From Erythrobacter sp. (GTDB lineage Bacteria > Pseudomonadota > Alphaproteobacteria > Sphingomonadales > Sphingomonadaceae), in the NCBI GenBank assembly GCA_029937545.1, contig JAPYPR010000001.1, positions 77,730-141,729 on the forward strand: a DNA stretch of 64,000 nucleotides, in the 5' to 3' direction. Shown in pieces: positions 56,151 to 59,253 of the stretch (positions are counted from its first letter, which is position 1; every line of letters begins with the position of its first letter). Made by a program: the position numbers and the translations under genes. The notes below the pieces were generated by a model. That model ran no database searches, was not told the DNA's origin, and worked only from the letters and a program-made list of their open reading frames with translations.

Positions 56151-56897
56151 TCAGACAAACGCCTTCCACAGCGCGGCGAGCGCCGCGGCGCCCAGCCCCA
56201 CGCCCACGCAGATGCGCCAGGTGCGGTCTTCGATCCGGCCCGAGACCCTGTTGCCGAGCCAGTTGCCCGTGAGCACGGCCGGGAACAGCAGCGCCGCAAG
56301 CAGCGCAAGCGCCCAGTCGAGCATGCCCAGCGCCGCGCCGCTTAACAGCCCGACAGACGACGCGCAGGTGAAGATCAGCAGCATGGAGGCCTTCGCCACC
56401 GCGCGCGGAATATCGCGCCCGACGTAATAGGGTACGACCGGTGGGCCGGGCATGCCGGCATATCCGGTCATCAACCCGCTCAATATCCCGACCCCGCCGG
56501 TTGTCGCCGGATGATGCTCCAGCGCCCCGCGCCGCGGCAGCAGGATGGCGACGAAGGCCGAAAGGGCGATGAAGGCGATGATCGCGCGGGCGATGTCCGG
56601 CGTGGTCGCGCCGAGCAGGAAGAGGCCCACCGGCGTCGTCACTGCAACCAGCCCGATGATCGCCCAGGCAGAACGCTCGGCGTCGCGCAGCAGGCGGCGG
56701 ATTTCCGACAGGCCGATGAAGACCGAGAGGAAGTTCGTCAGCAGCACTGCGTCCACCGGCGTCAGCGCCAGTGCGAGGATCGGCACGAGCAGGATCGCCA
56801 TGCCGAACCCCGTCAGCCCGCGTACGAAGGCCGAACCGAAAGCCGTAACCAGCGCGGCAAGAATAGCAGCGGTGCCGTAGCCCGCGAGCAGGTCCAT
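56151..56897 (-). CDS. TauE/SafE family membrane transporter
   Basis: A 248-aa inner-membrane protein with about eight hydrophobic segments. The family pattern is GSAFVRGLTGFGMAILLVPIL near the N-terminus and SGLMTGYAGMPGPPVVPYYVG in the middle. Members export sulfite, sulfoacetate or related anions; the substrate is not readable. It follows thrS by 7 bp on the same strand and is probably co-transcribed with it. Confidence 0.92.
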   Translation of the reverse strand: MDLLAGYGTAAILAALVTAFGSAFVRGLTGFGMAILLVPILALALTPVDAVLLTNFLSVFIGLSEIRRLLRDAERSAWAIIGLVAVTTPVGLFLLGATTPDIARAIIAFIALSAFVAILLPRRGALEHHPATTGGVGILSGLMTGYAGMPGPPVVPYYVGRDIPRAVAKASMLLIFTCASSVGLLSGAALGMLDWALALLAALLFPAVLTGNWLGNRVSGRIEDRTWRICVGVGLGAAALAALWKAFV

Positions 56898-56904
56898 GTG
56901 CGAC

Positions 56905-58926
56905 CTAGTCCTCGACCAAGTCGGGAGGTGTCGCCTCGGCCTTGAGCAGGGCGATCGCCTCGTCGAGGCTCATTACCCGCTGCTCCTTCTCGCCCAGCGT
57001 GCGGATGGCGACGGTGCCTTCCTCGGCCTCGCGATTGCCGACCACCAGCAGGTGGGGGACCTTGGCGTGGCTGTGTTCGCGCACCTTGTAGTTGATCTTC
57101 TCGTTGCGAAGATCGCTCTCGACGCGAATGCCCGCCGCTTCCAGCTTGACGACCGCTGCCTTTGCGTAGTCGTCGGCGTCGGAGACGATGGTCGCGACCA
57201 CCGCCTGCACCGGCGCGAGCCACACCGGCAGGCGGCCGGCGAAGTGCTCGATCAGGATGCCGATGAACCGCTCGTAGCTGCCGAAGATCGCGCGGTGCAG
57301 CATCACCGGGCGGTGCTTCTCGCCATCCTCGCCGACATAGCTCGCATCGAGGCGATCGGGCAGCACCCGGTCGCCCTGGATCGTGCCGACCTGCCAGGTG
57401 CGGCCGATCGCATCGGTGAGATGCCATTCGAGCTTGGGCGCATAAAAGGCGCCTTCGCCGGGCAGTTCTTCCAGCTTGCCGTCGCCTTCGCCCTGCATGT
57501 CGCTGACCGCGACGGCATCGCGCAATTCCTGCTCCGCCTTGTCCCAATCCTCGTCCGAACCGAAGCGCTTTTCGGGGCGCAGCGCGAGCTTGACGTCGTA
57601 AGTGAAGCCGAAGTCGCGATAGACCTGGTCGGCAAGCTCGATGAAGGCCTTCACCTCCTCGACCACCTGCTCTTCAGTGCAGAAGATATGCGCATCGTCC
57701 TGCGTGAACTGGCGCACGCGCATCAGGCCGTGGAGCGCGCCATGCGGCTCGTTGCGGTGGCAGCAGCCCATTTCGCCCAGCCGGATCGGCAGATCGCGAT
57801 AAGACGTAATGCCCTGCTTGAAGACCAGCACATGCGCCGGGCAGTTCATCGGCTTGATCGCCATCCAGTCCGCATCGGGCGCGACACTCGGATTGGCCGG
57901 ACCGTCTCCGAGTTCTTCGACCTCCGGCACCATGTCGGGCACGGCGAACATGTTCTCGGCATATTTGCCCCAGTGGCCCGACTGCTCCCACTGGCGCACG
58001 TCCATCAGCTGCGGCGTCTTGATCTCGCGATAGCCGGCCCTGTCCATCTTGCGGCGCATATAGGCTTCCAGCTCGCGCCAGATGCGATAGCCCTTGGGGT
58101 GCCAGAAGACGCTGCCATGCGCCTCTTCCTGAAGGTGGAAGAGGTCCATCTCGCGGCCCAGCTTGCGGTGGTCGCGCTTGGCTGCTTCCTCCAGCCGCGT
58201 GAGGTGGGCGTTGAGTTGCTTCTTGTTGAGCCAGCCGGTGCCGTAGATGCGCGTGAGCTGCGGATTGTTCTGGTCGCCGCGCCAGTATGCCCCGGCAACG
58301 CGTGTCAGCTTGAAGGCCTGCGGGTCGAGCTTGCCCGTGCTGGCGAGATGCGGGCCGCGGCACATGTCGAGCCAGTCCTCTCCCGACCAGTAGACCGTCA
58401 GCTCCTCGTTTTCGGGCAGTTCCTTCGCCCATTCGGCCTTGAAGACTTCGCCCTCGGCTTCCCACTTGTCGATCAGCTGCTGGCGGCTCCAGACTTCGCG
58501 GCGCAGCGGCTTGTCGGCCTTGATGATGCGGCGCATTTCCTCCTCGATGTCGGGGAGGTCGTCCATGCTAAACGGCTCGCGGTCGGCGGGTGCTTTCACG
58601 TCGTAATAGAAACCGTCGTCCGTCGCGGGTCCGAAAGTGATCTGCGTGCCGGGGTAGAGGGATTGGACAGCCTCGGCGAGGACGTGGGCGAAATCGTGCC
58701 GCGCCAGTTCGAGCGCATCTTCCTCGTCGCGGCTCGTGATCAATGCCAGTTCGGCATCGCCCTCGAAGGGGCGGTTGATGTCGCGCAATTCACCGTCCAC
58801 GCGCGCGGCGATCGCGGCCTTGGCAAGGCCGGGACCGATCGCGGCGGCGACATCGCCGGGCGTGCTGCCAGGTTCCATCTCGCGCACCGAACCGTCGGGC
58901 AGGCTGATCTTGAGCAGTTCCGTCAT
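56905..58926 (-). CDS. thrS: Threonyl-tRNA synthetase
   Basis: Class II synthetase charging tRNA-Thr. The 673-aa protein has the N-terminal TGS domain ([25 protein letters not shown]), the editing domain with [12 protein letters not shown] and [15 protein letters not shown], the catalytic core with [10 protein letters not shown] and [22 protein letters not shown], and a C-terminal anticodon-binding domain ([30 protein letters not shown]). The ATG at 58926 was chosen; the track adds 27 unsupported residues. A polythreonine leader peptide ends 219 bp upstream, suggesting control by Thr-tRNA availability. Confidence 0.97.
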
Positions 58927-59008
58927 CTTATCTCGTCCGTTTCCTTGCGCGGCCCATGGCACAGGCATGCGCACCGTTGAAGCGGCGTTTTTGTTTTGTT
59001 GCGGCACC

Positions 59009-59073
59009 GGCCCTCACCCCCTCCCGGCCACCCACGGAATAATCCTATCGGGTGGCCGGCAGGGGGTGAGGGC
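59009..59073. repeat. Palindromic element, copy B, in the thrS leader region
   Basis: GCCCTCACCCCCT and AGGGGGTGAGGGC are complementary outer arms. The inner core CCGGCCACCCACGG faces GGGTGGCCGG, matching copy A (53-133) while the outer arms differ. It sits between the leader peptide and thrS, so it may also take part in leader RNA folding. No U-tract follows on the thrS strand, so it is not by itself an intrinsic terminator. Confidence 0.75.
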
Positions 59074-59145
59074 TGGCGCCGCCAACGAAGAACCGATTTC
59101 GAGAGGAACGCCGCGCCACCCGAAACCGGGCGGCGGTGGCTGCGA

Positions 59146-59217
59146 TCAGGCCGCGACCATCCGCCCCCGGAAATCCGGGGTGGTGGTAGTCGTGGTGGTG
59201 AAGCGCAGTTGCGTCAT
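59146..59217 (-). CDS. Polythreonine leader peptide of thrS
   Basis: A 23-aa ORF begins MTQLRFTTTTTTTPDFRGRM and ends VAA. Seven consecutive Thr codons (mostly ACC) form a strong threonine sensor, as in Thr attenuator peptides. It lies 219 bp upstream of thrS on the same strand. A promoter-like TTGAGA-17-TATCTG places the transcript start within about 7 nt of the ATG, so the message would be leaderless, as for trpL of some alphaproteobacteria. Downstream, CCCCGG-ATTT-CCGGGG and further GGTGG segments can pair alternatively with the Thr-codon region. The ORF track hides it inside an 89-aa frame. Confidence 0.75.
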   Translation of the reverse strand: MTQLRFTTTTTTTPDFRGRMVAA

Positions 59218-59224
59218 GGCCGGA

Positions 59225-59253
59225 CAGATAGCGCGGGTGCCTGCGCTTCTCAA
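59225..59253 (-). promoter_or_regulatory. Predicted sigma70-type promoter for the thrS leader
   Basis: On the minus strand, TTGAGA (59253-59248) and TATCTG (59230-59225) are separated by 17 bp. The -35 box overlaps the stop codon of the PhoD gene. The expected start site falls at or just before the leader ATG (59217). Confidence 0.55.

Follow-up and report, generated by a model that had tools for sequence, protein, structure and literature searches.

Attenuators of the enterobacterial his and thr operons (Rfam Thr_leader) combine a run of codons for a single amino acid with RNA segments that pair either 1:2, 3:4 and so on or 2:3, 4:5. In Escherichia coli, the threonyl-tRNA synthetase (ThrRS) protein binds the start region of its own mRNA, thrS. 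This autoregulation is mentioned in PMC2965389, where the search for attenuators starts from Rho-independent terminators. Leader-peptide attenuators in front of synthetase genes have been described for trpS and leuS of Streptomyces and for pheST of gammaproteobacteria (PMC1262725). Among described systems, the cysS uORF motif uORFC-8-2 of Rhodobacterales comes closest; it contains two Cys codons and, in all cases, a 3′ run of U (PMC8632094). In Sinorhizobium meliloti, trpL is an alphaproteobacterial leader-peptide attenuator tied to leaderless translation, with Trp codons and trp genes (PMC7298713).

Here we analyze a 64,000-nucleotide stretch of Erythrobacter sp. DNA (the window), in which the thrS gene is preceded by an element that is very probably a ribosome-mediated, Thr-tRNA-sensing attenuator and as such would act on thrS expression. 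Like uORFC-8-2, it joins an alphaproteobacterial synthetase gene to a short ORF with cognate codons and to a structured leader of the ribosome-mediated attenuation type, but it comes from another order, has up to nine Thr codons, lacks a U-tract and contains two extra helices, B and C. It shares the one-amino-acid codon run and the chain of alternative segment pairings with the enterobacterial his and thr leaders; unlike those, it precedes thrS rather than a biosynthetic operon, has neither a U-tract nor an Rfam match, and would form a pseudoknot with B and C together, segment 5 being enclosed by helix C. It resembles trpL in being a putative alphaproteobacterial leader-peptide attenuator with a probably leaderless ORF, with Thr codons and thrS in the place of Trp codons and trp genes. 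The trpS, leuS and pheST cases also concern synthetase genes and differ in gene, lineage and sequence. The target gene is the same as in E. coli autoregulation, but here a leader peptide is present and no pairing with the start region covaries.

Searches with Rfam 15 gave no gathering match in the window, Thr_leader included, and seven relatives had no match with E values up to 0.5; T-box models likewise had no match in the window or in the seven relatives. Weak, microRNA-like Rfam matches in the window fell mostly on an inserted palindrome and were dismissed as chance. No trp leader was found before trpE in the same genome, where trpE directly follows another gene. A thrS leader switch is not described in the open literature that we searched; a survey by Lopatovskaya et al. 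2010 (Mol Biol 44:128), outside that scope, reportedly covers, by its title, attenuation of amino acid and aminoacyl-tRNA operons. Screens based on terminators would miss the element because it has no U-tract. If our reading is true, Sphingomonadales would possess a sensor for the cognate tRNA of an essential synthetase.

The locus is read on the minus strand, with a PhoD-like phosphatase gene upstream on the same strand. Its main features, in window coordinates, are:

59225..59253, minus strand: promoter P1, TTGAGA (59253-59248), 17 nt, TATCTG (59230-59225)
59146..59217, minus strand: 23-codon leader ORF MTQLRFTTTTTTTPDFRGRMVAA, ATG at 59217, TGA at 59148-59146; probably leaderless, as a 5′ UTR or Shine-Dalgarno (SD) sequence would not fit
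59179..59199, minus strand: seven consecutive Thr codons (ACC ACC ACG ACT ACC ACC ACC), read in the sequence; proposed sensor
58954..58982, minus strand: candidate promoter P2, CTTCAA, 17 nt, CCATGG, within the conserved TGTGCCATGG
56905..58926, minus strand: thrS, threonyl-tRNA synthetase, with four Pfam domains (TGS, tRNA_SAD, class II core and anticodon)

The initial annotation had placed a 23-codon ORF with seven Thr codons 219 bp before thrS on the same strand, which is exact to the base (leader stop to thrS ATG at 58926), and a TTGAGA-17-TATCTG promoter before the leader ATG, which is indeed present and conserved in motif and spacing among relatives. The –10 element of P1 ends 7 nt before the leader ATG. 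In ATG-aligned loci, the TA of the –10 (consensus CTATnT) lies 12-15 nt before the leader ATG in 118 of 120 cases, a count somewhat favoured by the method, since the –10 was used to choose among in-frame start codons. A –35 element, TTGA or GTGA, is found at the canonical distance in relatives; it was not used in the alignment and is thus an independent part of the evidence for P1. The predicted P1 transcript would begin no more than about 3 nt from the leader ATG, and the leader ORF is probably leaderless.

A run of Thr codons alone proves nothing, because the 3 Mb genome has no shortage of five-Thr-codon runs (19 sites for the pattern, against 48 for the reversed control pattern). Such runs turning up by chance elsewhere would suit the view that the Thr run is a functionless low-complexity repeat and the short ORF an accident. 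Among 80 ThrS-encoding loci from public genomes, a short Thr-rich ORF occupies the same place in nearly all loci of the Erythrobacter group and in some loci of Novosphingobium, Blastomonas, Sphingopyxis and Sphingomonas, and most Sphingomonas and Sphingobium loci are without it. By a single rule, 120 of 123 loci in which the element directly precedes thrS have a Thr-rich short ORF in this place, and the Thr runs of the remaining three are interrupted. Loss of the Thr run in relatives had been named beforehand as the finding that would refute the proposal, and the run proved to be conserved across 25 genera. Typical leader peptides are MTQARITTTTTTTSGNRGRVVAD, MAKLLTTTTTTTTSDIRGRLVAA and MASIRTLTSTTTPGDRGRGCVG. 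In relatives, codon positions 1 and 2 of the leader are near-invariant and position 3 is variable; 81% of the Thr codons in the runs are ACC or ACT, compared with 51% in the 5′ part of thrS, and the share of ACT rises from 6% there to 23% in the runs. The accidental-repeat explanation, against which stand the conserved position, reading frame and promoter spacing, the synonymous variation and the covarying RNA downstream, is ruled out by this conservation, and we give it practically no weight. Because a Thr-rich ORF is conserved in position before thrS across relatives, the reality of the leader is settled: by comparison of these loci, it is not a product of chance.

Searched at E ≤ 0.01, a covariance model built from 19 of the 80 loci found the element in 154 of 397 Sphingomonadales genomes, in 25 of 81 genera, nearly always once per genome and with E values reaching 4.5e-20. 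No match was obtained outside the family among 387 genomes from the class, and the window's own genome contains, beyond the thrS element, one weak match only. All 130 elements fetched, the window's own included, lie upstream of thrS, 123 directly and seven across one gene. This linkage, kept even past an intervening gene, counts against a leader RNA that is mainly a trans-acting sRNA, and against a peptide acting in trans, since a trans role needs no linkage. A leader peptide acting in trans is reported in PMC7298713 for the trp leader of S. meliloti, and the conserved structure could belong to a stable sRNA; on balance, we consider trans action as the main function quite improbable.

Downstream of the Thr run, the leader RNA can be divided into the following segments:

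59175..59190, minus strand: segment 1, last Thr codons plus CCCCGG; partner of segment 2
59151..59170, minus strand: segment 2, CCGGGGGCGGATGGTCGCGG, encoding ..RGRMVA, nearly invariant; partner of segment 1 or 3
59128..59140, minus strand: segment 3, GCCACCGCCGCCC, 5′ arm of helix A; alternative partner of segment 2
59115..59127, minus strand: segment 4, GGTTTCGGGTGGC, paired with segment 3 (as 3′ arm of helix A) or with segment 5 (as 5′ arm of helix B)
59107..59114, minus strand: 5′ arm of helix C, GCGGCGTT, with covarying pairs C-G/U-A, U-A/C-G and G-C/C-G
59093..59106, minus strand: segment 5, CCTCTCGAAATCGG, 3′ arm of helix B, inside the loop of helix C
58991..59092, minus strand: insert of about 100 nt within the loop of helix C, containing a dispersed palindromic repeat
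58982..58989, minus strand: segment 6, AACGCCGC, 3′ arm of helix C

Covariation was assessed by an arm-swap test in 49 species, in which each species' own arms were compared with arms swapped between species, with six control segment pairs. Swapping weakened helix A (z –6.2), helix B (z –10.4) and helix C (z –9.2), whereas the six control pairings gave z values from –1.8 to +2.9. The 2:3 pairing covaries only modestly (z –2.5), because segment 2 hardly varies. Over 99 distinct alignment rows, helix A is paired in 98.8% of cells, and the column-count covariation score was reached by none of 500 shuffles; helix B was absent from the model used for this alignment. Helices A and B both covary and exclude each other, as segment 4 is common to both. 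Helix C, which pairs GGCGTY with RACGCC around segment 5, is compatible with A as a neighbouring hairpin; combined with B, it would form an H-type pseudoknot. Near the end of the leader peptide, the residues RGR are conserved. Since segment 2 encodes them, their conservation may reflect RNA pairing rather than peptide function.

We then folded the leaders of 53 species under the constraint of a 32-nt ribosome footprint placed either on the Thr codons or at the stop codon. A ribosome on the Thr codons is predicted to favour 2:3 and B, and one at the stop codon A and C. From the first position to the second, expected pairs changed from 10.4 to 0.2 for 2:3, from 1.8 to 5.6 for A, from 3.0 to 0.35 for B and from 2.0 to 3.9 for C. 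Masking segment 2 forbids 2:3, so part of this outcome is built in; the exchange between A and B does not follow from the mask. With a stalled ribosome, B wins clearly in 30 of the 53 species, its mean being only about three expected pairs. When 3′ halves were exchanged between species, B became weaker with the ribosome stalled and C with the ribosome at the stop codon. The initial annotation had suggested GC-rich segments between leader and thrS that could pair alternatively, and a change of leader folding upon ribosome stalling. The first suggestion is borne out by covarying helices conserved across 25 genera, and the second agrees with the predicted switch, obtained in most of the 53 species; this geometry, which is that of ribosome-mediated attenuation, supports both the sensor and the switch then proposed. 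In these models, the position of the ribosome on the leader selects the helix.

We propose the following mechanism. Transcription from P1 would begin at the leader ATG or right beside it, and the Thr run would then be translated. A ribosome amply supplied with Thr-tRNA would reach the stop codon and cover segment 2, so that hairpin A (3:4) and then helix C could form; in this state, the P1 transcript would be stopped short of thrS. With scarce Thr-tRNA, the ribosome would stall on the Thr codons and leave segment 2 free, 2:3 would form at the expense of A, segment 4 would pair with segment 5 in helix B, and RNA polymerase would continue into thrS. The cell thus probably gauges the speed of ribosomes through the Thr codons to set the amount of ThrRS. 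A run of cognate codons precedes the target gene, in an ORF whose translation is predicted from sequence; covarying helices are mutually exclusive (A and B); and ribosome position selects between helices in constraint folding. That the element would work like a ribosome-mediated attenuator is well supported by comparison. Comparison of relatives establishes the leader, the motif and spacing of P1, helices A to C, the fact that A and B exclude each other, the location before thrS and the P2-like element.

A hairpin plus U-tract before the gene, as in a classical attenuator with an intrinsic terminator, was not found. The sequence after helix A is GGCGUYNCCUCCCG, and in 98 of 100 species fewer than five T occur in the 8 nt that follow A (at least five in only two of 100). 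Around the end of helix C, fewer than five T are present in 87 of 94 species. An intrinsic terminator after A or C was rejected for want of a U-tract, and the output of the switch is accordingly not an ordinary intrinsic terminator. The same sensor and switch could still act through ordinary intrinsic termination at A if the short pyrimidine run GUUCCUCU replaced the U-tract: A is a strong GC hairpin, and about half of the species have four T in the 8 nt after it. We regard this version as unlikely, given the T counts above and given that the tail CCUCCCG is explained by pairing in helix B, that hairpins with real T-tracts exist elsewhere in the window and that seven loci with an inserted gene have no T-tract before the ATG of that gene.

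These seven loci, among the 130 and from three genera (L233:1162-1659, L234:887-1393 and five more), contain one gene precisely between the switch and the unit of P2 and thrS. In all of them thrS follows the inserted gene, as shown gene by gene for four. The product is small and weakly similar to 3′-5′ exoribonucleases (Rv2179c-like, below the Pfam cut-off); the window's own genome yielded no such gene. Here the 3′ arm of C adjoins the putative SD of the inserted gene, as would fit a switch with the same sensor whose output is translation or RNA decay, C hiding the ribosome-binding site of the next gene or exposing a cleavage site. For the main arrangement, in which C is separated from the thrS start by at least some 55 nt and none of the segments gave significant covariation with the start region of thrS in the swap test (all p > 0.05), such an output fits poorly, and overall we judge it improbable, much as intrinsic termination at A. 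On the same test, a pairing between switch and thrS start was rejected as unsupported.

For the common arrangement, premature termination without a U-tract would be the simplest reading. We lean towards termination as the output: A and C would lower read-through by stopping the P1 transcript early, in a Rho-dependent or non-canonical manner. The most detailed version of our proposal is a leaderless polythreonine attenuator without an intrinsic terminator, in which a six-segment switch (A and C versus 2:3 and B, with a possible B/C pseudoknot) would govern Rho-dependent or other non-canonical termination, or translation, and would add Thr-responsive transcription to a separate thrS promoter across Sphingomonadales; taken in all its parts, it is a serious possibility that falls a little short of probable.

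Three features go beyond the initial annotation: the absent U-tract, the second promoter-like element P2, and a palindromic repeat in the loop of C that does not break C. The CTTC-N17-CCATGG of P2 is conserved directly before thrS in loci with the leader. In loci without a Thr leader, its counterpart before thrS is CTTGCC-N17-GCATAAG or GGCAAAG. A P2-like element within 110 nt of thrS was found in 136 of 197 loci, with or without the leader (controls, 3 of 123 and 31 of 197), and one also lies between the inserted gene and thrS. CTTC after helix C was considered a possible terminator tail. The –35 of P2 is the better reading, because a comparable element stands about as far from thrS in loci that lack the switch. 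Judged from these sequences, P2 is probably the basal thrS promoter. With P2 sitting between switch and thrS, the Thr-responsive expression from P1 would come on top of a basal supply, and only part of thrS expression would fall under control of the switch. The P2-like element may carry much of thrS expression, which counts against the attenuator, as does a species of the same genus (L243) in which P1, the leader and the switch as far as segment 6 are cleanly deleted and P2 is kept. An RpoH-type promoter, CTTGAA-CCATNT, had no match in the window. The unusual CTTC-N17-CCATGG element and its relatives may represent a wider sphingomonad promoter type. Antisense to thrS, a 694-codon open frame (window 56896-58980, plus strand) is presumably a by-product of high-GC coding.

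The palindromic repeat in the loop of C is about 80-90 bp long (CCCTCACCCCC...GGGGGTGAGGG) and has 47 BLAST matches in its own genome, many of which are both strands of one copy. The insert is present in the window species and in a close relative, G357 (L147), and absent in L071 and L104. Both arms of C and segment 5 are intact despite it, as expected if the loop tolerates insertion.

Natural variants (module deletion, decay of the Thr run, inserted repeat, inserted gene) make the evolution of the element readable. Upstream of thrS in an alphaproteobacterial MAG (L008), the Thr leader is kept, and helices A to C are absent between the leader stop and P2. In another species of the window's genus (L237), which likewise counts against the attenuator, P1 and helices A, B and C are recognisable upstream of thrS, and the Thr run has decayed to MTNARTHNSTTIAPGCARAG.
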